Shown here piece by piece: positions 9,828 to 62,645 of a stretch of DNA of 64,000 bases. Made by a program: the position numbers and the translations under genes. The first letter of the stretch is position 1; each line of letters begins with the position of its first letter. The notes beneath the pieces are model-generated. The model was given only the letters and a program-made list of their open reading frames with translations. It had not been told where the DNA came from and searched no databases. This DNA comes from Mesohalobacter halotolerans (lineage in GTDB: Bacteria; Bacteroidota; Bacteroidia; Flavobacteriales; Flavobacteriaceae), in the NCBI RefSeq assembly GCF_006120725.1, contig NZ_SWMU01000001.1, positions 682,001 through 746,000 of the forward strand, written 5' to 3'.

Positions 9828-10538
9828 ATGTCAAATCCTTTTTGTTTTAAGCAATTTCAAGTCTACCATAATAAAACCGCCCATAAAATTGGAACCGATG
9901 CGGTTTTATTAGGGGCATGGATTGATATTAGCTTTAAGCCTAACCAAATATTGGATGTAGGCACTGGCAGTGGAATCATTGCATTAATGATGGCGCAACG
10001 GTCATTTGCAGAACAAATCGATGCTATAGAAATTCAAGCTGAAGCCTTTCAGGAATGTGTTGGAAATTTTGAAAACTCACCCTGGAACGATCGGTTGTTT
10101 TGCTATCACGGAGATGTTCAAGACTTAGTTCAGGAGCCGGATTTAAAATACGATTTGATCTTGAGTAATCCACCGTTTTTTGAAGAGCAGCAACCCAAAT
10201 TTGATTTTCGTCAACAGGCGCGAGAACAACACACATTGAATTATATAAAATTAATTAATTCTGTGGTGAAATTAATACATTCTAAAGGACATTTTGCCGT
10301 AATTTTACCTTATGAAAAGCATCAAGATTTTATAAGCTTAGCAAAAGATAAAGGCCTTTATTTAAATAAAATCACACAGGTTAAAGGTCGAGCCAAAGCC
10401 AACTTTAAGCGCAGTTTAATGCAGTTTTCATATGCTCAAAGTTCCATAGATAAAGACGAACTGATCCTAGAAATAACGAGACATCAATATACAGAAGCCT
10501 ATAAAAGTTTAATTCAAGATTTTTACCTCAACTTATAA
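9828..10538 (+). CDS. trmN6: tRNA1(Val) (adenine37-N6)-methyltransferase TrmN6
   Basis: A 236-residue SAM-dependent methyltransferase modifying A37 of tRNA1-Val. The SAM-binding motif ILDVGTGSGIIALMMA is at 41-56, and the N6-adenine catalytic motif NPPFF is at 114-118. The N-terminal signature FKQFQVYHNKTAHKIGTDAVLLGAW is typical of the YfiC family (given here by its parts FKQFQVYH and GTDAVLLGAW). I place the start at ATG 9828 because the 14 residues upstream, from 9786, are hydrophobic and unlike the family. The 3' end overlaps marC by six bases, convergently. Confidence 0.9.
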   Translation: MSNPFCFKQFQVYHNKTAHKIGTDAVLLGAWIDISFKPNQILDVGTGSGIIALMMAQRSFAEQIDAIEIQAEAFQECVGNFENSPWNDRLFCYHGDVQDLVQEPDLKYDLILSNPPFFEEQQPKFDFRQQAREQHTLNYIKLINSVVKLIHSKGHFAVILPYEKHQDFISLAKDKGLYLNKITQVKGRAKANFKRSLMQFSYAQSSIDKDELILEITRHQYTEAYKSLIQDFYLNL

Positions 10539-34200: not shown

Positions 34201-35456
34201 CAGGAACATTGAAACCAAGCCCAGGCTTTGTATTTGGCGGTCAACGCGATGTAAGAGAAATTGCAGCTCGAAAAGGCTGGTTAACACTTTTCCAAGATTT
34301 TAATGAACAATATACCCGTAATTTAACTGAACAATTTGATTTGCAAGCTGGTTTGAAACTTATACCAGGTTTAACGATAGATTTACTTGCTAATAGAATG
34401 TATATGGACACCTACACAGAAAACTATAGGGTAGATCCTGAGACATTACAATATCAATCGCTTACGCCAAATTTATTTGGTAACTTTAGTATTACGACTA
34501 ATATGTTAAGCACCGCGTTTCAAACCTCAACTTCAGAAAGTTCACCAGCCTTCGAGGAATTTAGAAACAATAGGTTGACCATTGCAAAAAGACTTGCATC
34601 CCAGGCAGGAATCAACCCAGAAAACCCAGATAATCTAGATGAAGATGGGTTTCCTATAGGTTTTGGAAAAACCAACCAAGCCGTTCTATTGCCGGCTTTC
34701 CTATCGGCTTATACAGGGGAAGACCCTTCAACAGTTAAATTAGGGGCTTTTAGAGACACGCCAATACCAAATTGGAATATGAAATATACTGGTTTAATGC
34801 GTTTAAACTGGTTTAAAGAACGCTTTAACCGCTTTTCTATTGAACATGGGTATACGTCAAATTATACCATTAATCAATTTCAAAATAATTTAGAATTTGA
34901 CAGGAAAGATCCCTTTGGTCAGTTCAACAGAGATCAAAATGGCAATTTTATCAATAGACTGATTATTGGTAATATTAATCTATCAGAACAATTTACACCT
35001 TTAGTCAAAGTTGATTTTGAGATGAAAAATTCTGTGAGTATATTAGCAGAAATAATTCGAGATAGAGTTTTATCTCTAAGTTTTAATAATAATTTATTGA
35101 CCGAAATGCTGGGCGATGAATACAGATTAGGTTTAGGTTACAGGATAAGAGACTTACGTATAGTTACAAAGTTTGAAGGAAACAGGCGTGTCTTATCCAG
35201 CGATTTAAACTTAAAAGCTGATATTTCATTTAGACGAAATGAAACGATCATACGAAGTCTAGATGTGCTTAATAATAGAACGACCGCAGGTCAAGACATT
35301 TGGACAATAAATTTTACCGCAGATTACGGATTGACAAGAAACTTAACTGCAGCCTTTTTTTATGACCATACTTTTTCACAAAATGCTATTTCAACAATTT
35401 TTCCACAAACTACTATTCGAACTGGGATTAGGCTGACTTACAACTTTGGAAATTAA
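28206..35456 (+). CDS. sprA: SprA/Sov, type IX secretion translocon and gliding protein
   Basis: A 2416-residue outer-membrane giant that forms the T9SS translocation pore and is needed for gliding and secretion of sorting-domain cargo. It begins at TTG with a signal peptide ending near YSQEE. It has the repeated beta-rich segments typical of the family (for example FDFNQAIRLSLQAKVG, GSQSLFGVKTKLKFG, SYVDDFEGSQTSISL and RLTYNFGN at the end). A Gln/Asn-rich low-complexity stretch lies at about 33960-34075. The frame is intact, in contrast with remB downstream. It is followed by gcvH after 21 bp. Confidence 0.96.
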   Translation: MKLLKSFKSFYSSKSGLLIIVILIYGLGYSQEETPTDTTKTGYDLGSIKMPNPTSIKSKYTYDPLIDRYIYTEKIDDVNTIYPLVLTREEYQKLVLREQMMDYFKKKSDVVKGRNADDQDDLIPMFYVNNNFFETIFGGNQIEVNPQGSVGIDLGILYSKQDNPTLSPRNQSNLSFDFNQAIRLSLQAKVGTRLTVDAQFDTESTFDFQNQIKLQYTPDEDDILQDIQVGNVNMPLNSSLIQGSQSLFGVKTKLKFGKTTITSVFSELNSERQNVSVEGGGTVREYDKFILDYDENRHFFLAQFFRDEYDKALKNYPFINSRVQIQRVQIWVTNRTNNPQTIANARNIVAIQDLGESEPDKIGLFLDNDGNPIAPPLPNFLNNPGAFPDNPNNDFNPFGINSGSNTVLTSQIREIATIEQGFGAASSFVEEGRDYGILENARELQPNEYTLNRELGYITLNQRLSNDEILAVAFQYTSNGKVFQVGEFANDGVDASQNTLNPDQPDQEIAQNQSLVVKMLKSPVTNVNEPIWDLMMKNFYNLDGSGLEQEGFRMNILFTDPQPLNFINPAPESSVDLPGGVADENLLTVFELDQLNANQDPISTGDGFFDFVPGITIDTENGVIKFTKVEPFGEFLFEKLDNTPNTGPEDYDDPSTYNDNQDFYVFRSLYTTTKTQALQNEAQKNKFQLKGRYKSSGQDGIPLGAFNVPRGSVTVTAGGRTLQEGVDYVVDYELGRVQILDDALLASNTPIQVSTENNALFGRQTKRFTGIDVQHEFSDELLIGATFLNLNERPLTQKADFNQEPINNTIYGLNFNYATEVPFFTRLVNKLPNIDTDVTSNLSLRGEFAFLSPSSPNADDFNGQTTSYVDDFEGSQTSISLLNPEPWELSSVPVGLRGPNDINGSFNSNNDLSINDFRAKLNWYSIDPIFYSSQRPASISDQDISDYKTRRVLINELFPNTDIVTGQIQTIFTLDLAYDPTQRGMFNYNPAAASNNTLPNPDQNFGGIMRGLQTTDFERANVQFVEFWVMDPFIYPENAGNSGGQVVLNLGSVSEDILKDGRKQYENGLPEDGGEASTITTEFSKVPTEQSLVYAFDTEGEARTNQDAGFDGLDNVQESQKFSDFANFDDPSNDDYIYFLNREGSIVERYENFNGSQGNNITEVTETNRGNSAFPDVEDINRDNTMNTIDSYFEYKVPVFPNMSVDNNTSTQAGINQDYITDVRETTTTLPNGEQLPVRWVQFRVPLNTSEDFAVGGIADLRSVRFMRMYLTDFQQKIHLRLGSLDLVRGDYLTYKQPILPNGSDPETNGSTSFSVQSVSQEVTTEYVSPPGVVREQLVNNNQSIREDEQSLALLINNLESQDSRGVFKNFRVDMRQYENLEMFLHAQASPPPAIQLQDNQMVAFIRMGLDFTNNFYQIEVPLKVSEAGDLTPRGVWPLENDLNLPLDILQQIKSLVVGNDSFSPIDLNFFNKNLDPVSGTDQTEELRIGIKGNPSFGDIRVLMLGVKNQTEQNISGQVWFNELRLSGLQNEGGWAGLINLDTNFADFATITATGRRSTVGWGAIEEGPNQRSREDVKEYDVTTALNVGQLLPQDWGVKIPFSYSRGETLITPQFDPVLRDIELETLLDNAQDQQTEDELRERAEDYTRRQSVSIIGLRKERTNTSKTPMPYDIENFTFSGTYNQVDHRDFEIEESIDQNVDVNATYNYAFPQVKVEPLNDNEFLKKSPYFDLIKDFNFNALPTSVSASSTITRQYSELRFREFNLPEGSLGLPKLFQRNYFYDWQFAVDYQLTESLNFNFNAAQNRVVRNFIDENNEQDNSVGVWSDFFNVGIPNRHSQTLQVNYSLPFDKLPFLKFINAQYSYTGTFLWQKGSEILRNLEDIPNLGNTVQNSSQHQINGNLNMATLYDYVGLKKKGQTNNTQTVNNQQGRRQRGQNQNQQNQLQQQPQPQDSEELSFGSKLLNTGVTFLRVLDNVQFNYSESRGIFLPGYTNAIGFTGTLKPSPGFVFGGQRDVREIAARKGWLTLFQDFNEQYTRNLTEQFDLQAGLKLIPGLTIDLLANRMYMDTYTENYRVDPETLQYQSLTPNLFGNFSITTNMLSTAFQTSTSESSPAFEEFRNNRLTIAKRLASQAGINPENPDNLDEDGFPIGFGKTNQAVLLPAFLSAYTGEDPSTVKLGAFRDTPIPNWNMKYTGLMRLNWFKERFNRFSIEHGYTSNYTINQFQNNLEFDRKDPFGQFNRDQNGNFINRLIIGNINLSEQFTPLVKVDFEMKNSVSILAEIIRDRVLSLSFNNNLLTEMLGDEYRLGLGYRIRDLRIVTKFEGNRRVLSSDLNLKADISFRRNETIIRSLDVLNNRTTAGQDIWTINFTADYGLTRNLTAAFFYDHTFSQNAISTIFPQTTIRTGIRLTYNFGN

Positions 35457-50001: not shown

Positions 50002-50697
50002 ATGCTTGAGGATATTTTTTCTGCAATTCCTTTAGGAATATTTCTAGCATTTATGTTAGGGCCAGTATTTTTTGTATTGCTTGAAACTGCAGCGATAAAG
50101 GGTTTTAGAGCTGCTCTATCTTTTGATATTGGTGTCTTAATTGCCGATGCTGTTTTTTTAATTATCGCTTACTTTGGAACCAATCCTTTACTAAATCGGC
50201 TTAAAGACGACCCAGCACTCTACATTTTTGGCGGAACAGTTTTACTAACTTATGGTATAATTACTTTTATCAAAGTCAAACGCACCACAATTACACCTGC
50301 GACTTTTGAATTTCAAAAACTTAAAAATAGCGACTATATTCAAATTGCAGTCAAAGGATTTTTACTCAATTTTATCAATATTGGTGTACTGGGGTTTTGG
50401 TTGGGCTTAATCATAATATTTGGTCCAGGTTTAGAGATGCAACCCTTTAGATTGATTACCTTTTTTTCAACAATATTGGTGACCTATCTCGTCGTTGATG
50501 TATGTAAAATCTTATTGGCTAAAACTTTAAAACATAAGCTTACACCAACGCGTATAGCCGTGTCCAAGAAAATTATCAGCATTCTTATCATAATATTTGG
50601 TGTGGTATTAATTTTAAGAGGAATTGTTCCAAAACAAGTTTCAAAAATTGAGCAAAAAGTAGAAGACCAAATTCACATAGAAACGGATTCGCTTTAA
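50002..50697 (+). CDS. LysE family translocator
   Basis: A 231-residue exporter with six membrane helices and the LysE/RhtB start IPLGIFLAFMLGPVFFVLLET, with KGFRAALSFDIGVLIAD following. Such proteins export amino acids such as lysine or homoserine; the substrate here is unknown. It converges with the SLC13 gene (4-bp gap). Confidence 0.85.
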   Translation: MLEDIFSAIPLGIFLAFMLGPVFFVLLETAAIKGFRAALSFDIGVLIADAVFLIIAYFGTNPLLNRLKDDPALYIFGGTVLLTYGIITFIKVKRTTITPATFEFQKLKNSDYIQIAVKGFLLNFINIGVLGFWLGLIIIFGPGLEMQPFRLITFFSTILVTYLVVDVCKILLAKTLKHKLTPTRIAVSKKIISILIIIFGVVLILRGIVPKQVSKIEQKVEDQIHIETDSL

Positions 50698-50701
50698 AAA
50701 C

Positions 50702-52171
50702 CTATTCTAATGATTTTGGGAAATTTAAGTTCTCTAGACCAAATATCTCTGGCATAATAAAGTAAACAGCAAGGGTAATAATAATGATTGAGATGAAATT
50801 CATCAAAAAACCTTTTTTGACCATATCAGAGACTTTAAGGTATCCCGAGCCAAAAATAATGGCGTTAGGCGGCGTAGCTACCGGAAGCATAAAAGCACAT
50901 GAGGCTGATAAAGTAACAGCAATCATAATCAAAAATGGATGCATGTCAAAACTTAAGGCAACAGGTGATAAAATTGGGAGCAACATAGCGGTTGTGGCCA
51001 GATTAGAAGTCACTTCAGTTAAAAAATTGACCATAGCAGCAACAATTAAGATAAACACAATCACCACTACACCTTCAAAAACCGTGATTTGACTGGCAAT
51101 CCAATTGGCTAAACCGGTTTCTGTAAAACCTTTAGCCAGTGCCATACCACCGCCAAATAAAATGATGATACCCCAAGGTATTTTAACGGCTTCTTCCCAA
51201 GTTAAAAGTTTCTGCCCTTTTACATTTTTAGAAGGAATTAAAAACAATAATACCGCAGCCGTAATAGCGATAATCGTATCATCTACATCAGGAATAACTT
51301 TTTGAATTAAACTTCTAAAAATCCAGCCTAAAGCTGCTATTAAAAACACCACACCGACCATTTTTTCCTCGTAGGATAAACGCCCTAATTTGTGAATCAT
51401 CTCTTGTATATGATGCTTTCCGTCTGTAAATTTTAAGTTTTTGAGCTTAAAAGCAACCGATGTTAAATATTTCCAGCAAATAAATAACAACAGCATAGAC
51501 ACAGGAAATGCAAAAGTCATCCACTCAAAAAAACCAATTTTAATCTCGTATAAACTTTCTAAAACCCCTGCTAAAACTAAATTGGGAGGTGTTCCTATTA
51601 AAGTGCTGATACCACCTATTGATGCACTGTAGGCAATAGATAGCATCAAAGCTTTAGAAAAATAAGTATTGGTTTCGTGATTATCTTGATTTTGCTCAAA
51701 AATTTGATTAGTGATCGCAATGGCAATTGGTAACATCATGACCGTGGTTGCCGTGTTAGATATCCACATCGATAAAAATGCCGTAGCCAACATAAAGCCT
51801 AAGATCAAAAATGAGGCTTTTGAGCCAATAGCTTTGATGATATACAAGGCAATTCTTTTATGAAGATTCCAGCGTTCTATGGCAACCGCCAAAATAAATC
51901 CACCAACGTATAAAAATACAAATTTGTGTCCATATTGTGCTGTGGTCTCAGATAGCTTCAAAACGTCAAATAAGGGAAATAAAATAATAGGTATCAAAGC
52001 CGTCACAGCAATAGGCACCACTTCAAAAATCCACCATATGGCCATCCAAAGGGTGATGCCGAGTAGCATAAAACCTTCCTGGCTTAGCCCCTGTGGTGGT
52101 TCAATCCATTGAAAGAAAATAAAAGCCAAAGGCCCCAGTAATTTTATAAAGAGAAGTTTTAACTTTTGCAA
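50702..52171 (-). CDS. SLC13/DASS-family Na+/dicarboxylate carrier
   Basis: A 489-residue inner-membrane carrier with about 11-12 helices. The DASS signatures are clear: FLYVGGFILAVAIERWNLHKRIAL, the SNT motif in MWISNTATTVMMLPIAIAI, IGGISTLIGTPPNLVLAG and, in the second repeat, ATTAMLLPILSPVA and PVATPPNAIIFGSG. These usually import succinate, malate, aspartate or sulfate with Na+. It starts with TTG, 11 bp after the full-length end of the alpha/beta hydrolase remnant, so it appears to be the last gene of the eight-gene array beginning at 60776. Confidence 0.88.
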   Translation of the reverse strand: MQKLKLLFIKLLGPLAFIFFQWIEPPQGLSQEGFMLLGITLWMAIWWIFEVVPIAVTALIPIILFPLFDVLKLSETTAQYGHKFVFLYVGGFILAVAIERWNLHKRIALYIIKAIGSKASFLILGFMLATAFLSMWISNTATTVMMLPIAIAITNQIFEQNQDNHETNTYFSKALMLSIAYSASIGGISTLIGTPPNLVLAGVLESLYEIKIGFFEWMTFAFPVSMLLLFICWKYLTSVAFKLKNLKFTDGKHHIQEMIHKLGRLSYEEKMVGVVFLIAALGWIFRSLIQKVIPDVDDTIIAITAAVLLFLIPSKNVKGQKLLTWEEAVKIPWGIIILFGGGMALAKGFTETGLANWIASQITVFEGVVVIVFILIVAAMVNFLTEVTSNLATTAMLLPILSPVALSFDMHPFLIMIAVTLSASCAFMLPVATPPNAIIFGSGYLKVSDMVKKGFLMNFISIIIITLAVYFIMPEIFGLENLNFPKSLE

Positions 52172-52182
52172 CGTGTTTTGAT

Positions 52183-52989
52183 TTAGTTTTTAATAAACCT
52201 AATATATTCTTTTCTCGCTTTCTAAATATAAATTCCGTTTCTAAGACTGGAAATATCTAGCCCTTCTCAAACACCTACACTTAGACCTAATGCCACCAAC
52301 TGTTCAGTAATATCGTAAATGTTTATAATACAAATATCCTGAGGTAAATCCTTAAACAAAATTGCGTTTGAAATCGGATTAGGATAAATATTTAAGCTTT
52401 TTTTAGACCTAAACGCGTTTGATGATAATGTAGTCATCATAACATAAGACCAAATGTCATTAGCCATAAGTTGAGCATCATGCCCGATATTAATGTGTTC
52501 GTAATTTTCCCAGTTGAAAGTTACACTTTGGTTTTGGTCATCAATCTGACTGGTATTTAAAAAATACTGTCCGCACTCCAATCGTTGTAAATCTTGCTGA
52601 TTGTCTACTACCGCACTATGTTTTAACCCTATCGAATTTGGATTATCACCGTCGTCAAAAATATTGCGCATCATATAATTATCGCTTAAGCCGGGATAGT
52701 TCTGACTGTTAAATTCTGGGGCAAATACCATAAAATTATTGGCTTTAGCCATGTTTATCCAGTAGCCCCAGTAATTGTCGACGTTTCTGCTGCCACCATG
52801 AAAAGAAAACAGAATGGGCATGCTCGCGATGCCCCCATTGGGAATATAGTAAAACACTTCAACCGGCTGATTGCTTAAAGGACCGGTAGGCGTTAACACA
52901 AAAGACCCTGTAGAATTTTGATTCAGGTTTTGAGCATAACTTCCTAATAAGGATGTTATTAACAAACAAAAAAATGCAACGTATTTCAT
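52183..52989 (-). pseudogene. Secreted T9SS alpha/beta hydrolase, decayed
   Basis: The gene opens with a signal peptide (cleavage near SYAQ) and an esterase-like start (PVEVFYYIPNGGI, ILFSFHGGSRNVDNYWGYW). After MMRNIFDDGDNPNS it jumps to IGLKHSAVVDNQQDLQRLE. The intervening segment with the nucleophile G-x-S-x-G expected in this family is missing. The frame ends at TGA 52267, in the middle of a sorting domain (LNIYPNPISNAILF). Reading on in frame gives EGLDISSLRNGIYI, a TAG, then KARKEYIRFIKN and TAA at 52183, a normal type A sorting end. So it has an internal deletion plus two stops. Confidence 0.75.
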
Positions 52990-54266
52990 TACAACGAGAT
53001 ATGCAAAATGAGTTCGAACTGGTCCAAAGCTTCACCAACCGCAGGATCAAATCTTGAATAAGAGGCCTGGAGTTTTAAAGCATTTTCGTAAAAGTATTTG
53101 GAAAATCCAAAACTGGTTTGGTTCATATCAGATAACACGGAACCGTCAAAACTATCAAATTCAGGCGTGGTGTTGGCATATCTAAAATCAAAACTAAATC
53201 CACTCTTCGTTACATAGCCCAATTGTAAATTATAACTGTCGCCTAGAGCTAAAAATTGACTGATTTGCTCAGGGGCTAGAATCTGAGTGGCAGACTCATC
53301 CAGGAAAGCCAAATCAATGCCCGTGGCTGAGGTGTTGGCGTATTCAGCTAATAAGCTAAAGCCTTTGTATTTCATCAAAATATCGGTGTAGACTTGTCTG
53401 TAGTCCGGTAAACTATCTTCACCATTTTGATCAAAAAGAAAGAAGTCACCGTGGCTTTCACCTGAAGCACCACTGGCACCATTGTTATGGCTTCCGGCGA
53501 CACCAATTACAAATTTAAGTTCATCTTCTCGCGCTAAATCTACACTTGTGAGCTCGTTACCCGGCTTGAAGTAGCCTAAAGGGTACAAGTCTAAACGTCC
53601 GCCAATTTTTACGCCGCCAATATCAGAATCTCTGGAATCCTGACCAAACGAATTACGGCCGTCTCCGGATGTTAAAGCTGCCATTGGCATGATACCGAAA
53701 TTACCAACTTCAAATTTTGACTCTACAAACACCCCAAACTCACGACCGGTTCGAGATAAACTTTCGCTGAGTAAACTGCGGTTGACAAATTGGAGCCTGT
53801 CTTCTCTATAGATCATTTCGCGGTTATTGGCAAAATTCTGTTTCTGTCCGAAACTTATTTTAACTTGTTCTACAGGTTGATAGGCCATATATACATCCAT
53901 CAAAGGATTAGATCTACTAAAGTCCAGCTGGACAAAAAACGACACTTTTTCTTCAACAGCATTACCTTCAAACTGAAGAAAAGTTCTTTTGGACCTGAAT
54001 GTGTTTACGTCATCCATGCCGTCCATGGTTTCTCTGAGATAACCTGGTTGAATGAAACCATTTAGTCCAAAATAGTAGTTTCCTTCATTAAAGGAAAAAT
54101 TCAGGCCGTTCCCTAAACTATAATAGGCTTTATTTCTTTCTGTTTCTGTTTCGCTTCCAGGATCTTCTTCTTGGTATTCGTCCTGAGCGTTTCCTAAAGT
54201 TATTGATCCTAAAAAACAAAGCATGATCAAAAATTGGATGTTGGTTATGTCTATAAATCGTTTCAT
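52989..54266 (-). CDS. OprO/OprP-type porin (second copy)
   Basis: A 425-residue outer-membrane porin. It has a signal peptide (cleavage near GNAQDE), an acidic N-terminal stretch, then a 16-strand-type barrel with family segments SKRTFLQFEGNAVEEKVSFFVQLDFSRSN (parts FLQFEGN and FFVQLDFSR), MAYQPVEQVKISFGQKQNFANNRE (part ISFGQKQNF) and LSRTGREFGVFVESKF. OprP-like porins pass anions such as phosphate, and flavobacterial members are less well defined. It overlaps the hydrolase start by 1 bp and follows the M14 gene by 20 bp. It resembles the porin at 55818 in the same array. Confidence 0.85.
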   Translation of the reverse strand: MKRFIDITNIQFLIMLCFLGSITLGNAQDEYQEEDPGSETETERNKAYYSLGNGLNFSFNEGNYYFGLNGFIQPGYLRETMDGMDDVNTFRSKRTFLQFEGNAVEEKVSFFVQLDFSRSNPLMDVYMAYQPVEQVKISFGQKQNFANNREMIYREDRLQFVNRSLLSESLSRTGREFGVFVESKFEVGNFGIMPMAALTSGDGRNSFGQDSRDSDIGGVKIGGRLDLYPLGYFKPGNELTSVDLAREDELKFVIGVAGSHNNGASGASGESHGDFFLFDQNGEDSLPDYRQVYTDILMKYKGFSLLAEYANTSATGIDLAFLDESATQILAPEQISQFLALGDSYNLQLGYVTKSGFSFDFRYANTTPEFDSFDGSVLSDMNQTSFGFSKYFYENALKLQASYSRFDPAVGEALDQFELILHISL

Positions 54267-54286
54267 ATCGATTGTGTTTTATGCAC

Positions 54287-55816
54287 TTAGTTAAGTAATC
54301 TATATATGGGTAATGTATTTCCTTTTTCGGTTTCTATTAGGCCAAAGCTCACAAAACTGTTAGGCGCTTCAGGCTCTAAAAGTTCAGGCAACAGATTGGC
54401 ACGCCTCTGGTTCATTTTGACCATAAATGTCCCGGCTTTAAAGGTTTTTTCCTCTTTTTTTAAGGATGTTTCAACTGTTTGTAATTTCATTTTTTCATAG
54501 CGAATCGGTTTTCTGTAATAGGTATCTACGTAATAACTTTCTACTTCAAGCACTTTTTCTTGGCTAAGTTCTTCGACTTCTATCCCTAAAGTCCTTATTT
54601 TTTTTGCTAAAGAAGTTTGATTGGCATCAAGGATATAGGCCGTCGGTCTTGTTCTGGAAAGTGTAGCTTCTGCCTTCCAAGCATCGCGCACCATCATTTC
54701 AAACTCAACGTATTCAACAGCGCTGACATCTATAAATTTTACCTTGTCTTTATAAACTGCTCTTTCACTTTCAACTACCACAGGGTTGCTTTGTTGTATG
54801 GCTTTTTCAATTTCACTTTTGACGAGTTCGATGTTTTCTGCTGCCGCCCTAAGGTAAGCAACGGCTATTAAGAAGCTGGAATGGATTCTCCGTTTAAAGG
54901 ATGTTCGGCCTAAGGCCACACCTCTAATTTCAATCAGGGATGAAATGGTATTGGTTAAGGCATTGTTAGAGGCACTGGAGCGCGCACTGATAGACCCCTG
55001 ATTGATGTGAATATCGCCACTAATTTTTCGGGTCGAAATGTAGGGGTGATGGGTATAATTAAATTCATCTAAAGATTTTCTGGCCTTGTCTACAAACACA
55101 TCGTTAGTTAAGTTTCTGAGATTTTCAGGCACATTTAGATTTCCGCTGTAAAGAAACATGGCATCGTACATGTTGGTTACCCCAAAATCGCCCATTCTGG
55201 CATAATCACGTCGGTAAGCTCTGTATTCATGAAAATCTACGGCCACTTCAGGGCTAAAGTTGACATAAGCTTTTTTCAAGATCACAGTTTCAGGCGCCAT
55301 CAGTTTGGTTTGGTCTCGGTTAAGGTCAAGACCATTGGCGGCGTATCTGTTGTTTTTAAGATAACCGTCTATATTGGCCATAGGCACGACGGCAAGTTCA
55401 ACATTATCAAGAATATCCGTATAATTGTCGTCATTGAGCAGTTTGTCTAAAAGGTATAGCATACTTTCTGTACTGGCAGGTTCGTTGCCGTGCAGACCAC
55501 CCTGCATCCAGACTTTTATTTTCTCATTTTCATTGGGATTAGTGAGTTTTACCATGGGGATATTTCTGCCTTTTTGGCTTTCCCCGATAAAACTCAGCTT
55601 AATTTTATGAGGGTGATTGTCGACTAAATTATTCAGAAAACCTAACAATTCTTCATAATTGGTGTATCCTCTTTTCTTTTGTAGTGCAGGTGTGGTATTC
55701 AATACCTCATCACTATCCGGAAAAAACTTTTCTGTTATTTTTTTGGATTGAGGTGTAAATTGTGCATAAGCTGTTATGCATAAAATACTCATCAATATGG
55801 TAACTATATTCTTCAT
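54287..55816 (-). CDS. Secreted M14 zinc carboxypeptidase
   Basis: A 509-residue exported metallopeptidase (signal peptide ending near AYAQF). The zinc ligands are His109 and Glu112 in GGLHGNEPAST and His196 in VDFHEYRAYR. Asn166-Arg167 in GLDLNRDQTK would bind the substrate carboxylate, and Glu296 in SLIEIRGVALG is the likely catalytic Glu. The C-terminal ~200 residues are a beta-rich domain without T9SS sorting features. It should trim C-terminal residues from peptides in the periplasm. It sits between two porin genes, 1 bp from one and 20 bp from the other. Confidence 0.9.
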   Translation of the reverse strand: MKNIVTILMSILCITAYAQFTPQSKKITEKFFPDSDEVLNTTPALQKKRGYTNYEELLGFLNNLVDNHPHKIKLSFIGESQKGRNIPMVKLTNPNENEKIKVWMQGGLHGNEPASTESMLYLLDKLLNDDNYTDILDNVELAVVPMANIDGYLKNNRYAANGLDLNRDQTKLMAPETVILKKAYVNFSPEVAVDFHEYRAYRRDYARMGDFGVTNMYDAMFLYSGNLNVPENLRNLTNDVFVDKARKSLDEFNYTHHPYISTRKISGDIHINQGSISARSSASNNALTNTISSLIEIRGVALGRTSFKRRIHSSFLIAVAYLRAAAENIELVKSEIEKAIQQSNPVVVESERAVYKDKVKFIDVSAVEYVEFEMMVRDAWKAEATLSRTRPTAYILDANQTSLAKKIRTLGIEVEELSQEKVLEVESYYVDTYYRKPIRYEKMKLQTVETSLKKEEKTFKAGTFMVKMNQRRANLLPELLEPEAPNSFVSFGLIETEKGNTLPIYRLLN

Positions 55817-55817
55817 C

Positions 55818-57200
55818 TTAAAAGGATAAGGTTAAAATTACTCTGATTAAGCTTTCATCTCCGGGTATAGGTTCAGAATTATTATTAAAAACCCCAAACT
55901 CACCGGCTTCAACATAAGTATAAGACGCCTGAATTTTTGCACCATAGCCTCTCGTCAGATACTTGCTGATACCAAAAGTGTAAAAATTCGGTCGGTTGTA
56001 AAATGTGGCGTTATTCAAGAATGAGTTGGTTTCGGCATTGATATGGGTATAACGGGCATCAACTGAAAAACCGTTTTTAAAAATATAACCGGCCTGAATG
56101 TTATAGGCTTCGCCAAGCATCATTTGCCGCCTGACGTATTCCTGAGGCGTATAATCTCTAAAGTCTGAGGATGTCGGGTTTACTCTTCCTCTGAATCTGT
56201 CGGTGAGTACACTAACATCGGGGCCATAAATGTCGCTTCTCAAATTAATATCTTCAGCAATATTTGTCAAGAAACTTTTATGATATTCTCCTAAGACTGA
56301 AAAGCCTTTGTATTTGAACATGAAATCGACACCAAATTTAGCGTAATCAGGCAGGCGTTCTTCGCCGTCATCCAGGGCGCCGTTGCCGTTAACATCATTT
56401 AGGTACACAATCCTGCCGCTGTTTCGCCCCCTTCTACTGGTAATGCCGTCATTGTAGTTAAAGGTAGCTCCAACTACCAATTTAGGGGTGAGTTCTCTTA
56501 CGACATCGGCTTGACGAAATTGACCATAATTGGTAAATAAACCAAATGGTAAAAAATCTATCCGAGTCCCATATTTTAAACCTCCTCTGTCATTGGCAAA
56601 GACATTTGCGCCATCGCCATTGGTGATGGTGAGATAGGGTTTTAGATAGGTTCCTCGTCCGGTTCTAAACGTTCCTTTGGCAAATAGTCCAAATTCGCGA
56701 ATACTGGCAAAGGCAGAAGTTAAACGGCTACGTTCCGGTAATTGAAGTGTATTGGAGTTCATGAACAACTCGCGGTTATCGGTATAGGTAGCCCGCTGTC
56801 CAAAAATTAACTCTACCCTTCTTGCAACTTTGTAAGCGACATATGCATCTAAAAGGTAATTTCTGGCATCTGTGATGTCGCCGTCTATCTGCGCTTCATC
56901 CTGTCCAGCCAAATCCACCTGAAGTCTATAACTAAAACGCTCGTTTGCCGACTGTCCGGAAAGTCTTAAACGCAAACGTCTCATCCTGTAACGGACTGAA
57001 TTAGGTTCATCTGAGTTTTGGTAAGTTTCTACATCCATCCAGGGCTGCATATAACCTTGCAACTTTACTGTACTGCTATTGGCGTTTGTAAAGTTATAGC
57101 CTTCACCAAAGGTGTAGGAACTCAGTTTTGTGTTTTGTGCAAACTGCTCCGAAAAACTCAGCAAGGTTATTACACAAACAATAATTTTAAAACCGTTCAT
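55818..57200 (-). CDS. OprO/OprP-type porin (first copy)
   Basis: A 460-residue outer-membrane porin with signal peptide (cleavage near EQFAQN). The barrel segments KLQGYMQPWMDVET, RMRRLRLRLSGQSANERFSYRLQVDLAG (part FSYRLQVDLAG), ARRVELIFGQRATYTDNRE and REFGLFAKGTF match the phosphate-selective porin O/P family. LNDVNGNGALDDGEE in a loop is a calcium-binding-like sequence. I chose ATG 57200; the upstream ATG 57227 would overlap IadA. It is the partner of the copy at 52989. Confidence 0.85.
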   Translation of the reverse strand: MNGFKIIVCVITLLSFSEQFAQNTKLSSYTFGEGYNFTNANSSTVKLQGYMQPWMDVETYQNSDEPNSVRYRMRRLRLRLSGQSANERFSYRLQVDLAGQDEAQIDGDITDARNYLLDAYVAYKVARRVELIFGQRATYTDNRELFMNSNTLQLPERSRLTSAFASIREFGLFAKGTFRTGRGTYLKPYLTITNGDGANVFANDRGGLKYGTRIDFLPFGLFTNYGQFRQADVVRELTPKLVVGATFNYNDGITSRRGRNSGRIVYLNDVNGNGALDDGEERLPDYAKFGVDFMFKYKGFSVLGEYHKSFLTNIAEDINLRSDIYGPDVSVLTDRFRGRVNPTSSDFRDYTPQEYVRRQMMLGEAYNIQAGYIFKNGFSVDARYTHINAETNSFLNNATFYNRPNFYTFGISKYLTRGYGAKIQASYTYVEAGEFGVFNNNSEPIPGDESLIRVILTLSF

Positions 57201-57216
57201 AGTTAGTTGTTTAATA

Positions 57217-58365
57217 CTATAGTTCAAAATTTCCTTTCACTATAATGTTTTTATCTTTCATCATGTGTTGTCCTTTGGCAAAAACGTCTAGGAGATTTAA
57301 GTCTTCATCAAAACAACAAAAATCAGCATCACAGCCTACTGCTATTCTTCCCTTATGCCTTATACCTAAATTTTCTGCGGGATTGGTAGTGTTGAGCTTA
57401 ATGGCTTGTTCTATTGGCAGCCCACCTTGTTTGATTAAGGCCTGGATTTGTTCCAAATTGGCATCAATAGGGGCACATCTTACGCCGATGGCATTGCCAT
57501 TATCATCAAACTTAGTTAACCCGGCATGACCGTCTGTACTAAAAGTCATTTTATCGATAGAAACCCCTTCATCTAAGGCATAAAGCACCGACTTATAAGG
57601 CGCTGTATATTTTGAAGCGCCGGTAGTGATGTCTATCATACCGCCCAGTTTGGCAAATTCGATCGCCTGGTCAAAAAGTGGTTTTGTTCTCCCCACGTGT
57701 GTTGGCGAAATGTGTTTGATGGGAAAATGGTAATCATTGACAAGCTCAAACAACACATCCATTTTGCTGGATAAATTTCCCAGGTGCAAATGCAGGATGC
57801 CTTTTTTACCGCCAATCATTCCACCAACCATGATGTCTCTGAGTTTCCTGACCAAATCATCTGCAGACGGATATGAAGAACGAATGTCACTGATGGCAAT
57901 TTTTACCCCAAGGACTTTATCGATAAACAGCATATCACCCTGAATACTATCGGTGATGGTTACCGTGTCCATACCATAATATCCACTAAACATGTAGGCT
58001 GAAAGGCCTTCTTGGTTCAATCCTTTGACTTTAGCGTAAAGTGTTCTGATGTTACGTGCAGTCCCATCTGTACCCAAAAGACTATTGACTGTTGTAGAGC
58101 CGCAAGCGATGAGTTCGCTTAGTTTTACTTCGGGCGTCATCGAAGCAAATCCCTCTTTGCCACCGGCGCCAATCACATGAATATGCTGGTCAATTAGACC
58201 GGGAGTTACGATTTTTCCATCCAGATCAATAACCTTAGTATGCTTATTGTCAAACTCTGAAAGGTCATCCTCAATAGCTATGATTTTATTATTGGCTATT
58301 AAAATGTCTTTCATCCCCATTTTTTCAGGGCTGTAGAGTTTTGTATGTTTTAGTAATGTAAGCAT
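57217..58365 (-). CDS. iadA: Isoaspartyl dipeptidase (IadA-like, M38)
   Basis: A 382-residue amidohydrolase that cleaves beta-aspartyl dipeptides. The binuclear zinc site is complete by comparison with E. coli IadA: His61 and His63 (IDQHIHVIGAGGKEGF), the carbamylated Lys155 (VLGVKIAISDIRS), His194 (LHLHLGN), His223 (SPTHVGR) and Asp278 (FSTDGHAG). The length matches. Substrates arise from isoaspartate-damaged proteins or from cyanophycin, but no cyanophycinase is present here. It lies 3 bp after the DcuC-type carrier gene. Confidence 0.9.
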   Translation of the reverse strand: MLTLLKHTKLYSPEKMGMKDILIANNKIIAIEDDLSEFDNKHTKVIDLDGKIVTPGLIDQHIHVIGAGGKEGFASMTPEVKLSELIACGSTTVNSLLGTDGTARNIRTLYAKVKGLNQEGLSAYMFSGYYGMDTVTITDSIQGDMLFIDKVLGVKIAISDIRSSYPSADDLVRKLRDIMVGGMIGGKKGILHLHLGNLSSKMDVLFELVNDYHFPIKHISPTHVGRTKPLFDQAIEFAKLGGMIDITTGASKYTAPYKSVLYALDEGVSIDKMTFSTDGHAGLTKFDDNGNAIGVRCAPIDANLEQIQALIKQGGLPIEQAIKLNTTNPAENLGIRHKGRIAVGCDADFCCFDEDLNLLDVFAKGQHMMKDKNIIVKGNFEL

Positions 58366-58368
58366 AAT

Positions 58369-59757
58369 TTAAATAAAGTGATAGGTTAACATGATGATTA
58401 AAGCCACTCCAAGAGGTATAAGATTTCGTTTAACGATGTCTATGGTTGAGACTTTGGCGATTTCGGCAGTGGCAATAATAACACCGGCTACCGGAGAAAC
58501 GGTTCTACCCATTGAAGCAGAAAACTGCATGGGTAAAAGTATTGAAGTGGTCTCAGCACTAAGACCTTTTGAAATTTTGGGAATCAGTGGCCCAAAGGCA
58601 AAAAATGAAGCATTCCCGCTACCCATGAGCATAGAGGCTAAAAAGATCATTACTGTCATGACAATACCAATACCAATCAGACCAAAGCCTGCATTTTCAG
58701 CAATTGCTAATAAACCTTCTATAAACCCAAGACTGATCAAGCCTTTGGCAAATATGTCTGCAGTGATGATGAGCGTCACCACTGTTTTAAAAATATTGCC
58801 CATCCCATTCCAAAAGATTTTCAGCGAATCAAAAAGCTCTTTTAGGTTTCGTTTTCTGATGCCTTCAAATATCAGTGCAATAAACAAGCTGATAAACATC
58901 GCTGTGGTTGTATCTAAAGTAATCGGGCTTGGAAACAAACTGAATAATTTTGAAAACACAATCAGCAACACAATTGGTAAAACAGGTATAACCGCATAGA
59001 TTAAGGGTACTCCCAGTTTTTCTGAGTTTTGTTTGTCTTTTTTAAGTTTTTCAGCATTTTTAGACGCTTCAGGGTCTTCGTTTCTTTTTTTGTCAAAGTA
59101 TTTATTGACAAAATAATACGTGATCATCATGGAAATGCTCAAGGGCCAGACCAGTGGAATTTGAAAATCTACCAAATACGCTATGGCAGGTAATTTAGCG
59201 ATTGAAGCCGCACTAACGCTCATGGCAGAAGCAGGTCCCATGCCAAAAGCCGTTGCTGCAGTAATCACAGAAACTGCTGATAATCTGCTTACCCCAAGAT
59301 TGACTAATATAGGAAACAATGACGCCATAAGCAATAATCCCAGGCCAGCAGCCGAAGGGATAGATACAAACAGCACCTGACCAATCGGAATCACCATTGA
59401 GGCCGCGATGTAGGGTTTTTTCTTAAATAGCTGAAGTGGTTTCATGGCCACATGCACGAGGGCTTTGGACGCTCCTATCTTATCGATATATGCGACAAAA
59501 CCACCAATAGCCATAATCATGAGGCCAACACCGGCGTTGGTTTTGCTAAAGGATTCTTTAATGTATCTAAAAAAATCAAAACCGATAAACCCAGTTTCAT
59601 CTTTTAGTTTTGGCAAGCCATAATTCAGCAGAAAAGACACGAGCAACATCAAGAGTCCGGATACCAGTAATATGGCATGCGGGTTGTGTTTTTTAAGCAG
59701 TAATCTGGCGACCACTACTATAAAAATCAGCGATATGATGAGACCTGTATAATCCAT
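58369..59757 (-). CDS. DcuC-family dicarboxylate/amino-acid carrier
   Basis: A 462-residue inner-membrane carrier with about 12 helices. DcuC-family features include MIMAIGGFVAYIDKIGASKALV, IPSAAGLGLLLMASLFPIL, AATAFGMGPASAMSVSAA and the late MQFSASMGRTVSPVAGVIIATA. DcuC members move C4-dicarboxylates; related proteins move amino acids or dipeptides. The placement next to IadA suggests uptake of beta-aspartyl peptides or their products, an inference. Confidence 0.82.
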   Translation of the reverse strand: MDYTGLIISLIFIVVVARLLLKKHNPHAILLVSGLLMLLVSFLLNYGLPKLKDETGFIGFDFFRYIKESFSKTNAGVGLMIMAIGGFVAYIDKIGASKALVHVAMKPLQLFKKKPYIAASMVIPIGQVLFVSIPSAAGLGLLLMASLFPILVNLGVSRLSAVSVITAATAFGMGPASAMSVSAASIAKLPAIAYLVDFQIPLVWPLSISMMITYYFVNKYFDKKRNEDPEASKNAEKLKKDKQNSEKLGVPLIYAVIPVLPIVLLIVFSKLFSLFPSPITLDTTTAMFISLFIALIFEGIRKRNLKELFDSLKIFWNGMGNIFKTVVTLIITADIFAKGLISLGFIEGLLAIAENAGFGLIGIGIVMTVMIFLASMLMGSGNASFFAFGPLIPKISKGLSAETTSILLPMQFSASMGRTVSPVAGVIIATAEIAKVSTIDIVKRNLIPLGVALIIMLTYHFI

Positions 59758-59768
59758 GTTAGATTAAC

Positions 59769-60776
59769 TTAGAATGAGCTGCCATCAACTTTTGTTCCCG
59801 GTGAGTACAAAGCGCCGTTCGCTTCCTCGATGTCCTGATCGTGTTGTACAAAATCACCGGTGAGGTCCGGGAATCGCGTGTAGGATTCATTCGGATTGTT
59901 GGATAAAGGCTCAACATCAAAGGTGAGGACAACATTACCATTAGCATCGGCTACCGTTACAAAGTCACCAGAATTGTTCATGTTTATGACACTTTCTGAA
60001 CCTGTTTGAACAATAGCTCCACCAAAATCTCCTGTTGGTGAACCTCCTCCAAAAAGGACAAGCACACCGTTTACAGGTACAATAGTTCCCTGTGGAAAGA
60101 TATGTCTGACTTCAGAAGCATCAGATACGGTCCAACCAGACATATCCAGTTCAGGACCTGAATTGAAGAATTCAATAAACTCATCCTCATTAGGGTCTCG
60201 GGTGCCATCATTATTGGCATCACCAGCACTTCCAGATGGTGGGTCATATAAAACTTCATTAATCAAAAAGCCTAAGAACGGGCAACCATTGTTTAATGGG
60301 TCACCGGGAGTATTTGGGCACTCATCTTCGTTGTCAAATACCCCATCTCCATCGGTATCGACATCATCGTCCTGAAGGATGATTTGAATTTCTGTGGTTG
60401 AGAATTCAGTCAGTACTTCAGAGGCATCAAGACTTACAATAATGCTTTCAGGCTCTTCAAGCATGGTATCCTGAATACTGTTTAAGGTAATATCACCGGA
60501 TAATTCACCCTTAGGGATTGTAATGCTATTGCTGCTTGTGCTGTAATCTTCAGACAGGTTGGCTGATCCGGAAAAATTAAGATTAAAATTTAAGTCTTCA
60601 GAAAACGTGCCATTAAGCGTTGCAGTAATTGTTACATTGCCATCGGCTTCAGAAAGACTTTCACTGCTCGATGAAAGTGCTACAACCGGTAAAATATCAT
60701 CTGTAGTACATGCAAACTGAAAGAGGCATAACAATATGATACTTATTACCCGGGTTATGTTTCTACTTTTGTTCAT
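59769..60776 (-). CDS. Lamin-tail-domain surface lipoprotein
   Basis: A 335-residue lipoprotein (lipobox FQFACTT, Cys23). A Calx-beta-like domain (about 33-140, SEADGNVTITATL ... EPESIIVSLDAS) is followed by a TSP3-like calcium repeat (DTDGDGVFDNEDECPN, near 143) and a C-terminal lamin-tail domain (about 168-330). The latter carries LINEVLYDPP, a dockerin-like GDANNDGTRDPNEDEF and FFNSGPELDMSGWTVSD. The domain is paralogous to that of the protein at 60906. It heads the eight-gene array; the DcuC gene follows after 11 bp. Confidence 0.85.
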   Translation of the reverse strand: MNKSRNITRVISIILLCLFQFACTTDDILPVVALSSSSESLSEADGNVTITATLNGTFSEDLNFNLNFSGSANLSEDYSTSSNSITIPKGELSGDITLNSIQDTMLEEPESIIVSLDASEVLTEFSTTEIQIILQDDDVDTDGDGVFDNEDECPNTPGDPLNNGCPFLGFLINEVLYDPPSGSAGDANNDGTRDPNEDEFIEFFNSGPELDMSGWTVSDASEVRHIFPQGTIVPVNGVLVLFGGGSPTGDFGGAIVQTGSESVINMNNSGDFVTVADANGNVVLTFDVEPLSNNPNESYTRFPDLTGDFVQHDQDIEEANGALYSPGTKVDGSSF

Positions 60777-60822
60777 AAGTCAAAAAATTATTTGGTTTCA
60801 ACTTTTAAAGTTGTAAATAATC

Positions 60823-60850
60823 ATACCAGTTTATGTAAAAATTCATACCA
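60823..60850. promoter_or_regulatory. ATACCA direct repeat, candidate MocR operator
   Basis: ATACCA at 60823-60828 and 60845-60850, 22 bp start to start. ATACCA direct repeats are the sites of the MocR-type GabR of Bacillus. The pair lies 47-74 bp upstream of the first gene of the minus-strand array (ATG 60776). Confidence 0.5.
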
Positions 60851-60865
60851 ATTACATCTGGAATA

Positions 60866-60894
60866 TCAAAAAGGCCGTTTAATTAAAAACGGCC
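60866..60894 (-). terminator. Rho-independent terminator of the lamin-tail/T9SS gene
   Basis: On the minus strand GGCCGTTT pairs with AAACGGCC around a short loop (60894-60873), followed by TTTTT. It ends the gene at 60906-62645 and separates it from the array downstream. Confidence 0.8.
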
Positions 60895-60905
60895 ATATAT
60901 TGATT

Positions 60906-62645
60906 TTAATTTATAATTAATTTTTGAGTATAACTGCTTTTAGAAACAGAGACTCTTATAAAATAAACACCACTCTCTAAGCGCGATATGTCTAACTTGT
61001 CACTTTCTAAAGTTGTGCTTAGGATATTTCTACCCATGAGGTCAAAAATTTCAAGGTTTTTAATTCCTTCAATATTAGATTCTATATTCACAAATCCATC
61101 TCTTACAGGATTGGGGTATATTTTGAATTTGTTATTGAAGTTTACATCTTCAACAGAAAGTGTAGATCCATCAACTTGCAATCCAGGAGAATAAACTAGT
61201 GCTGGATTAGCATTGGTATGAAAATCGTAACCTCCGGTAATATCTGGATTTCTAGTGATAGATTCGTTAGAGCCAAAATCAATACCCAAATCAGATTCAA
61301 GTTGCGGGCTATTTAGCTCTAAAACAAAATCGTCATTAGCAGTTGTAACAGTTACAACGTCACCACTATTTGACAAGTTTAACTGCCCATCAGAAGCCGT
61401 CTGGACTATAGCTGTTCCAAAACTGCCTGTTGGCGTTCCACCACCAAACACAACATATGCGCTGTTTGGAGACAAGACTGTATTTGCAGGCACGGTGTGT
61501 CTTGGGGTTCCTGAGCCAAGAGCATTTGAGTCATAGATTTTATAACCACTGATGTCCAAACTAGAATTTGAATTATTGAAAAATTCTAAAAATTCATCGT
61601 CCAAAGCATCTCTCGTTCCATCATTATTGGCGTCGCCTTCAACTTCTGGCGTTGCACTATCATCACTTGGTGGGTCAAAAAGCGCTTCATTAAGTACTAA
61701 TGGTACACAAACTGGACTTTCTACATCAACTGACAAATCACAAACTCCACCATCGCCAAGATCACTTAATGTTACGGTAACATCAGTGCCTTCTGGAATA
61801 TTCATGATTTGAATTATTCCTGAATCCATCATGTTTGGGTCATCACCACCAACAGTGCCAGCAGTTGTCGATACTGTAAATGTATTTCCATCATTGGCAT
61901 TAGAAAAATCAATACTAGCAGTATAAGTATCATCAGTAGCACCAACAGCTTCAGACATGCAATTTACAGAAGTTGTGTTTCCAAAAATTGTTGTACAAAC
62001 ATTACCTGTTGGGGTCCATCCTGAACCTGTGCCTAAAGGGAATGTGCCTCCGAGACTTGCAAAATAGGTTTCTAAATTAGGGCTAACAACACCACCTTCG
62101 CAAGCCGTGTGGTCATCTAATTCCTGTTCTGGTGTAATATCCCAATGGGTTGGATCCCAAGTTCCAAGATCTGGAATTCCATCTAGTCGCGTTGCCACGG
62201 CATCACTGTGTTGCCAATTAGAATCCGTATCGTTATCTGCATCGGTTTCAGTTTTACCAAATTGGCTAACTACTGTACCGTTTAATACAACTTGATAGCC
62301 GTCATCTCCATTGGTTGAAGTTCCAACAACAACCGTATTTGATGCATCAAAAGTCGTAGAAGGAAACTCAGCTTGCATGAGTGCAATATCTCTAACGATA
62401 TATACAAACGTATCTGTTTGAACACCCAATGCAGAAATATCAATTTGATTGTCTGCCCAAGGATCTCCATTTTGCATATAATTTAAGGTCACTTCAGACC
62501 CAAAATCTACCGTGCCATCTACATAAAGTTCAACAGTTTTTACAAAAGGACTCGAACATCCGGTTTCAATAATCTTAGTAATCGTCACATTTTGAGAAAA
62601 TGCGCCAACACTAAATAAAAGAATTAATAAGTACAATTTTTTCAT
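60906..62645 (-). CDS. Lamin-tail-domain protein with T9SS sorting domain
   Basis: A 579-residue secreted protein. It has a signal peptide (cleavage near AFSQN), an N-terminal domain (about 20-130: VTITKIIETGCSSPFVKTVELYVDG, in parts ITKIIETGC and VKTVELYVDG), a Cys-containing middle part and a lamin-tail domain (about 318-490). The C-terminal type A sorting domain carries FKIYPNPVRDGFVNI ... LESGVYFIRVSVSKSSYTQKLIIN (last 75 residues). The lamin-tail part (LNEALFDPP, GDANNDGTRDALDDEF, VVFGGGTPTGSFGTAIVQTA) mirrors the lipoprotein at 59769. The gene is divergent from the MocR-like gene. Confidence 0.88.
   Translation of the reverse strand: MKKLYLLILLFSVGAFSQNVTITKIIETGCSSPFVKTVELYVDGTVDFGSEVTLNYMQNGDPWADNQIDISALGVQTDTFVYIVRDIALMQAEFPSTTFDASNTVVVGTSTNGDDGYQVVLNGTVVSQFGKTETDADNDTDSNWQHSDAVATRLDGIPDLGTWDPTHWDITPEQELDDHTACEGGVVSPNLETYFASLGGTFPLGTGSGWTPTGNVCTTIFGNTTSVNCMSEAVGATDDTYTASIDFSNANDGNTFTVSTTAGTVGGDDPNMMDSGIIQIMNIPEGTDVTVTLSDLGDGGVCDLSVDVESPVCVPLVLNEALFDPPSDDSATPEVEGDANNDGTRDALDDEFLEFFNNSNSSLDISGYKIYDSNALGSGTPRHTVPANTVLSPNSAYVVFGGGTPTGSFGTAIVQTASDGQLNLSNSGDVVTVTTANDDFVLELNSPQLESDLGIDFGSNESITRNPDITGGYDFHTNANPALVYSPGLQVDGSTLSVEDVNFNNKFKIYPNPVRDGFVNIESNIEGIKNLEIFDLMGRNILSTTLESDKLDISRLESGVYFIRVSVSKSSYTQKLIIN

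Follow-up and report, generated by a model that had tools for sequence, protein, structure and literature searches.

The 64,000-nucleotide stretch of DNA analysed here (the window; positions 682001–746000 of a contig in the 2.65 Mb genome of Mesohalobacter halotolerans) carries, at 50702–60776, eight minus-strand frames arranged head-to-tail, seven of them intact and one decayed, and this array is a genuine locus that is conserved in relatives; its substrate is probably an acidic C4 polymer or peptide with beta linkages, a beta-aspartyl compound being favoured. The array comprises genes for a lamin-tail lipoprotein, a DcuC carrier, an IadA-like amidohydrolase, two OprP/OprO-type porins (A and B) on either side of an exported M14 carboxypeptidase, the remnant of a secreted hydrolase related to the poly(aspartic acid) hydrolase PahZ1, and a DASS/SLC13 carrier. 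In more specific terms, the locus would serve the use of an extracellular, polyanionic, beta-linked C4-acid polymer or oligomer, most likely of the beta-aspartyl type (polyaspartate-like or an isomerised Asp-rich peptide), a reading to which we lend slightly better than even confidence. A first-pass annotation of this DNA had described seven intact genes and one decayed gene on the minus strand with gaps of at most 20 bp, and the recomputed coordinates and gaps agree with it (11, 3, −11, 1, 20, −1, and 11 bases from the lipoprotein to the DASS gene, computed with the earliest start codons and with the last gap counted from 52183, the end of the old hydrolase frame).

Conservation in relatives was one of the checks that the annotation had proposed for the array, and the array passed it. 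The relatives considered are the best 80 of 161 loci confirmed in a scan of named genomes with an alignment of the M14 protein; all of them come from Bacteroidota according to their record titles, and the bacteria that carry them are presumably aquatic, as judged from those titles and from known habitats. A locus is treated as complete where the sequence extends 9.9 kb or more to either side of the M14 gene (46/80), and the loci are not independent, since at 90% M14 identity the 80 loci form 66 clusters and the 46 complete ones 41. In 75 of the 80 loci the genes for porin A, M14, and porin B follow one another directly, and both porins are found in 77, together with a lipoprotein-like frame in 69, a PahZ1-type gene in 57, and IadA with DcuC in 56. 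Every one of the 46 complete loci includes a C4-dicarboxylate carrier, drawn from three families (DASS, DcuC, and SDF), while a PahZ1-type gene lies within the flank in 36 and IadA is present in 36; the ten complete loci that lack IadA all have PahZ1 and a DASS or SDF carrier. The most constant parts are therefore M14 between its two porins and one C4 carrier, followed by PahZ1, and DcuC–IadA, mostly accompanied by a MocR-type regulator (31/36 complete loci with IadA, 0/10 without it), appears as an added module. A streamlined locus without IadA, DcuC, and MocR occurs in L050, L052, L084, L086, L087, L089, L092, and L099, which share a conserved chromosomal setting and belong to genomes titled uncultured Bacteroidetes or Flavobacteriaceae.

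The same arrangement was found among 299 Flavobacteriaceae genomes, a sample whose loci overlap the 80-locus set (at least six contigs have equal lengths in the two). The IadA-like protein (E 1e-60) is present in 12 of these genomes and M14 (E 1e-60) in 12; apart from the window genome, 11 genomes have IadA, and in ten of them the order DcuC–IadA–porin A–M14–porin B is retained, while the eleventh shows only DcuC–IadA–porin A on a 3 kb contig. Chance clustering of the array genes was thus rejected, because gene order and co-occurrence are kept in relatives beyond chance. The distribution of the locus is nevertheless patchy, since M14 at E 1e-60 was detected in 5 of the 395 genomes of a phylum-wide sample, the window genome included. 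Transposase-like frames, recognised by eye, stand beside the loci of two relatives (L016, 97–858; L020, 3611–5140) and may offer a clue to the way in which it is moved between genomes.

The decayed hydrolase gene is, as judged from its translation, a relative of PahZ1. It matches PDB 9o7u (E 1.7e-13) and 6ve6 (E 8.9e-11), both solved chains of poly(aspartic acid) hydrolase-1, and it aligns as two profile pieces (1–130 and 238–306 of 307). The missing positions 131–237 hold the catalytic Ser and Asp, and two stops interrupt the translation of the old C-terminal tail, so that the decay recognised in the first-pass annotation is borne out. Intact orthologues of the remnant are found in L016 and L019, the latter with a sorting domain of the type IX secretion system (T9SS). 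Moreover, because an intact PahZ1-type gene lies just past the window end, the window genome retains a candidate depolymerase; this gene scores 469.4 bits to the locus profile, being itself a row of that profile. When this profile, built from 11 proteins (ten intact and the remnant), was run against PDB sequences at E 0.001, only three matches were obtained: both poly(aspartic acid) hydrolases, at 264 and 261 bits, and then LpqC, at 185 bits. The catalytic triad is kept in the 66 PahZ1-type locus copies (Ser 66/66, Asp 65/66, and His 62/66), the exceptions being gaps or unread letters. According to the consulted part of PMC4456602, PahZ1 of Pedobacter KP-2 cuts the bonds between beta-Asp units.

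The tie between PahZ1 and the rest of the locus is also seen at the level of whole genomes, with PahZ1 at 300 bits or more in 10 of the 12 M14-positive Flavobacteriaceae genomes and in 6 of the 287 others (Fisher p 4e-13; the threshold was chosen by eye in a gap between 262 and 346 bits), and in two of those six (G170 and G275) further genes of the locus are present, on contigs that are short or truncated. Among the 11 genomes whose locus flanks lack PahZ1 (the ten complete loci and L062, of incomplete flank), seven have a PahZ1 of at least 364 bits elsewhere or just past the flank and four have none at E 1e-20. A DUF4886 protein, which we take to be SGNH-hydrolase-like, is encoded near M14 in 7–8 of the 80 loci, all of them without PahZ1 in the flank (L062, L065, L068, L075, L077, L079, L096, and perhaps L080), and may be a replacement depolymerase. 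Its Pfam identity comes from the L096 protein, and the search model was made from one protein that also bears a PKD domain, through which L080 may match. Two further PahZ1-type genes are found in other company. L123, from genome G174 of the window genus, combines a locus-type PahZ1 (432 bits) with a DASS carrier, a DUF4886 protein, and a SusD/SusC-like pair, with neither M14 nor porins in the stretch, an apparent second uptake route for the same or a similar product. In L124, the PahZ1-type gene is accompanied by a gamma-glutamyltranspeptidase, an M20 peptidase, and weak DUF4886 and N-formylglutamate-amidohydrolase matches. Poly-gamma-glutamate was considered on the basis of L124; neither the transpeptidase nor the M20 peptidase is among the window locus proteins typed.

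The exported M14 protein and the porins belong to the most constant core of the locus. Across 29/29 sequences, M14 keeps His109, Glu112, His196, Arg157, Asn166, Arg167, and Glu296, so that candidate zinc ligands, substrate Arg, and catalytic Glu are present, with roles that we presume from carboxypeptidase A; the best folds for its model (predicted local distance difference test, pLDDT, 90) are carboxypeptidases T, B, and A. The window porin sequences matched no family profile directly and PDB profile searches with both gave no match. However, PF07396 (Porin_O_P) is matched by 15 of the 29 aligned porin A members and 9 of the 29 porin B members, and the best solved folds for the porin A model (mean pLDDT 73.8) are OprP (2o4v) and OprO (4rjw), which indirectly supports the OprP type given to both porins in the first-pass annotation. 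In porin A, Arg79, Arg81, Arg83, and Arg84 are invariant and Arg86 is near-invariant, all on one modelled strand, a pattern that recalls the arginine ladder to which the title of the OprP entry 2o4v refers. The families assigned earlier to the DASS, DcuC, IadA-like, M14, and lamin-tail proteins all matched curated families, and the best PDB relatives of the DASS carrier are SLC13A2, A5, A3, and A1, followed by the bacterial VcINDY.

The IadA-like enzyme aligns gap-free to Escherichia coli IadA (1onw) and keeps the metal ligands and the catalytic Asp (His61, His63, Lys155, His194, His223, and Asp278), as well as Arg169, Arg233, Thr106, and Tyr137, with roles that are presumed here except for that of Glu77. 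The latter residue of E. coli IadA is replaced by Lys70 in the window enzyme and by Lys in 52 of 55 locus sequences, and Ser289 by Gly282 in the window enzyme and by Gly in 54 of 55 (54 loci plus the window; only IadA-like proteins of more than 370 aa and 300 bits were counted), whereas Glu77 is kept in the 4/4 non-locus relatives fetched, one of them a partial match below the cut-off. Glu77 presumably contacts the free amino group of the substrate, and with Lys at this site the pocket might accept a group of the D-aspartyl, N-substituted, or malyl type. Glu77 is described as a substrate-binding residue, also kept in the Leucothrix IadA, in the part of PMC10206079 that was consulted. The locus enzyme thus forms a distinct subfamily, not to be filed as an ordinary isoaspartyl dipeptidase, and the premise of the first-pass annotation that IadA needs beta-Asp dipeptides does not transfer to it unchanged. 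Three of the four Glu-keeping relatives were viewed in context (L184, L185, and L186), each with a similar-looking gene directly downstream, and the gene at 9928–10785 of L184 is a cyanophycinase (TIGR02069).

The sequences show the gene content, its conservation, and the families of the proteins; from these, the working of the locus, the sites of its proteins, and the part played by its regulator are inferred as follows. PahZ1-type endo-hydrolases, bound to the cell surface or secreted by the T9SS, would cut the polymer; in the window genome the secreted copy is dead and the lipoprotein-like copy intact. Porins A and B, of the OprP type, would stand in for a SusC/SusD pair and admit the anionic pieces to the periplasm, and the exported M14 carboxypeptidase would trim them to monomers or dimers. 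DASS and DcuC, or SDF/DctA in other species, would import the dicarboxylate monomers or small dimers, and a cytosolic IadA-like hydrolase, which some members of the family possess along with DcuC and, in most cases, MocR, would split the imported dimers, its altered pocket suggesting a substrate other than plain beta-L-aspartyl dipeptides. The MocR-type regulator would control both divergent halves; its tie to the locus is drawn from its position and from its occurrence only where IadA is present.

Several points weigh against this reading. We know of no natural beta-polyaspartate, and thermal poly(aspartic acid) (tPAA) is synthetic. The PahZ1 copies of the locus share only about 35% identity with the two solved enzymes and stand apart from them in a tree of 99 proteins (only PahZ1-type proteins longer than 250 aa were taken in), in which 9o7u pairs with a PahZ1 copy outside any such locus and 6ve6 with LpqC, and the locus clade includes four copies without M14 seen nearby (L123–L126). 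In addition, no PahZ1 at E 1e-20 was found in the genomes of the complete loci L068, L077, and L095; the 22/22 lower-scoring PahZ1-like genes of Flavobacteriaceae have no other locus genes in the stretch fetched; and four plasmid PahZ1-like regions that were inspected (28 records matched) are all unrelated settings, two of them adjoining pectate lyase or exopolysaccharide genes. To these are added the Lys in place of Glu77 in the IadA-like enzyme, the SDF carriers, which score best to DctA (512.6 and 503.3; cut-off 513) and not to the glutamate/aspartate carrier GltP, and the MocR-type regulator, which is over the cut-off for the vitamin B6 regulator PdxR (NF052282, 344.7 vs. 320). Given this separation in the tree and the occurrence of relatives in other settings, membership of the PahZ1 family does not by itself prove a polyaspartate substrate; the substrate is narrowed down by the M14, porin, and C4 carrier genes found alongside.

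Part of this evidence could be accommodated by the use of polymalate. Poly(beta-malate) is the ester counterpart of beta-polyaspartate; the PahZ1-type enzyme would cut its beta-ester bonds, M14 and the IadA-like protein would act as esterases on small esters, and malate would enter through DASS, DcuC, or DctA. The carriers are indeed of the C4-dicarboxylate type, with the SDF ones closest to DctA, the Lys at the Glu77 position might go with a substrate bearing a hydroxyl in place of an amino group, and the presumably SGNH-hydrolase-like DUF4886 protein, apart from its 7–8 loci, is also found near two other PahZ1 genes (one match being below the Pfam cut-off). Furthermore, PahZ1 resembles polyester (polyhydroxybutyrate, PHB) depolymerases and polymalate is made by microorganisms, as stated in the portions consulted of PMC4456602 and PMC9210645, respectively. 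Nevertheless, we regard polymalate as an unlikely substrate, because M14, M20, and IadA are peptidase families and those PahZ1 enzymes that have been tested cleave amides. Amino compounds are the usual ligands of MocR regulators. A distant cluster far outside the family (L187) argues in the same direction, as it joins a T9SS-tailed PahZ1-like protein (180 bits) to an M20 peptidase, an M14 protein (173 bits), an MFS/POT-type carrier, and a Na+/H+ antiporter, a peptidase and carrier set that favours amide over ester bonds; its M20 peptidase is related to 7ljh, a PDB chain named poly(aspartic acid) hydrolase that we take for PahZ2.

Another possible use of the locus is the scavenging of ordinary alpha-linked acidic peptides rich in Asp and Glu, for instance from biomineral or algal proteins; the PahZ1-type protein would then be an esterase or amidase of the locus with no part in that use. 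This reading would suit the most constant core, i.e., M14 with OprP-type porins and dicarboxylate carriers, and the invariant Arg279 of M14, near the modelled S1' region (as placed by counting from Glu296), could favour acidic C-termini; however, it leaves both the strong PahZ1 link and the IadA-family enzyme unexplained, and we consider it improbable. More doubtful still is the form given in the first-pass annotation, in which beta-aspartyl dipeptides from cyanophycin or damaged protein are taken up and IadA is the key enzyme. The IadA-like protein does exceed the TIGR01975 cut-off with all metal ligands kept, and loci for cyanophycin utilisation that include IadA and a carrier have been described (PMC10206079, in the part consulted), but the Glu77 replacement sets the locus enzymes apart from the non-locus relatives, and IadA is absent from 10 of the 46 complete loci, so that its standing as an essential locus enzyme was rejected. 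Cyanophycinase is over its cut-off in 4 of 13 locus-bearing genomes, always on a different contig from the locus, and in the window genome the best match reaches 64 bits against a cut-off of 126.6. Cyanophycin as food was thus rejected and is unlikely as the source proposed earlier, since there is no cyanophycinase over the cut-off in that genome or among the ten proteins typed at 50002–62645; a SusC/SusD locus was likewise rejected, no such pair being among the same ten proteins, as the first-pass annotation had noted for both. What stands of that annotation is an acquisition system for an acidic, probably beta-linked, peptide or polymer, strengthened by the PahZ1-like remnant and by the C4 carrier in all complete loci, while its anchor in IadA and beta-Asp dipeptides is weakened.

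The coordinates of the array and its surroundings are collected in Table 1, in which three genes are absent from the first-pass annotation, namely, those for the lamin-tail/T9SS protein upstream of the array, the MocR-type regulator, and the intact PahZ1-type hydrolase. The hairpin upstream of the array would fit an operon beginning at the lipoprotein, although terminator-like sites overall are near the chance number (12 found vs. 10.1 expected). The lipoprotein is the query best matched in the 69 loci with a corresponding frame, 36 of them at 400 bits or more; frames matching the lamin-tail/T9SS protein best occur in 25 of the 80 loci and, because only six reach 400 bits, many of these matches are of the sorting tail alone, so that this gene would be a locus member in part of the relatives only. 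SprA, the outer-membrane translocon of the T9SS, is encoded in the window at 28206–35456 (TIGR04189, 2760 bits), consistent with the T9SS tails of locus proteins. A LysE-type exporter gene at 50002–50697 is convergent with the DASS gene, and one is also found near the locus of L027, the closest relative (1/80 loci of relatives).

Table 1. Position, strand, and basis of assignment of the array genes and adjacent features (window numbering).
Feature	Position	Strand	Basis or remark
Lamin-tail/Calx-beta lipoprotein, surface-type, array gene 1	59769–60776	−	PF00932 and PF03160; FQFAC N-terminal end, putative lipobox by eye
DcuC C4-dicarboxylate carrier	58369–59757	−	NF037994, 386.7 bits (cut-off 100)
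IadA-like dinuclear-metal amidohydrolase	57217–58365	−	TIGR01975, 395.7 bits (cut-off 331.25)
Porin A, OprP/OprO-type	55818–57227	−	Aligned relatives match PF07396; model fold
Exported M14 carboxypeptidase	54287–55816	−	PF00246, E 2.7e-24
Porin B, OprP/OprO-type by family	52989–54266	−	Aligned relatives match PF07396; adjoins M14 in relatives
Remnant of T9SS-tailed secreted PahZ1-type hydrolase	52267–52989 open, old frame to 52183	−	PDB matches
DASS/SLC13 carrier, final array gene	50702–52171	−	TIGR00785, 327.8 bits (cut-off 198.6)
Terminator-like hairpin upstream of array	60873–60894	−	8 pairs, 5 G-C
Lamin-tail protein with T9SS sorting tail, upstream of array	60906–62645	−	PF18962 and PF00932
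MocR-type regulator (GntR plus aminotransferase fold), divergent	62740–64236 (past window end at 64000)	+	PF00392 and PF00155
Intact PahZ1-type gene outside window	64315–65217		Lipoprotein-like start by eye; beyond the MocR-type regulator

Among known systems, degradation by PahZ1/PahZ2 and the locus for cyanophycin utilisation come closest, yet the array differs from both. As in the degradation of poly(aspartic acid) by PahZ1 and PahZ2 in Sphingomonas KT-1 and Pedobacter KP-2, a PahZ1-family hydrolase is paired with a second zinc peptidase type; however, PahZ2 is presumably an M20-type exo-enzyme, whereas the second enzyme of the locus is an M14 protein, dedicated porins, carriers, and a regulator are added, and the PahZ1 itself is divergent, as described above. 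The cyanophycin utilisation locus (Ben Hania 2017, per the consulted part of PMC10206079) is likewise a scavenging locus of Bacteroidota with an IadA-family enzyme and a carrier, but here no cyanophycinase is among the typed genes, the IadA has Lys for Glu77, and PahZ1 and M14 are found instead. With the SusC/SusD polysaccharide utilisation loci the array has in common the clustering of a surface depolymerase, outer-membrane passage, periplasmic trimming, and a carrier, while differing in its peptidase-type enzymes and in having OprP-type porins and no SusC/SusD among the typed genes. From E. coli IadA, whose fold family, metal ligands, catalytic Asp, and two Arg are kept, the locus enzyme departs by the replacement of Glu77 with Lys and of Ser289 with Gly. 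No description of such a locus was found in the open-licence literature, as judged by title or abstract start, in keeping with the first-pass annotation, which knew of no described system of this composition; literature on polyaspartate and its loci yielded nothing on point beyond PMC4456602.

A bolder interpretation, put forward tentatively, is that these loci are an undescribed class in many marine and freshwater Bacteroidota whose food is a natural polymer of beta-linked aspartyl or malyl units, as yet overlooked in aquatic organic matter. Its pieces would be taken in by OprP-type porins and not by SusC/SusD, with a re-tuned IadA-family enzyme specific for dimers, such as D- or N-substituted beta-aspartyl or malyl ones. 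PahZ1 enzymes are known from the breakdown of a synthetic polymer. A conserved locus that links their relatives with porins, M14, and C4 carriers in a range of aquatic Bacteroidota indicates that a natural substrate does exist, and offers a testable way to it. An acidic polyamide, or polyester, would thereby join the polymers recycled by aquatic Bacteroidota, and the locus would supply enzyme sets for degrading polyaspartate-type materials.

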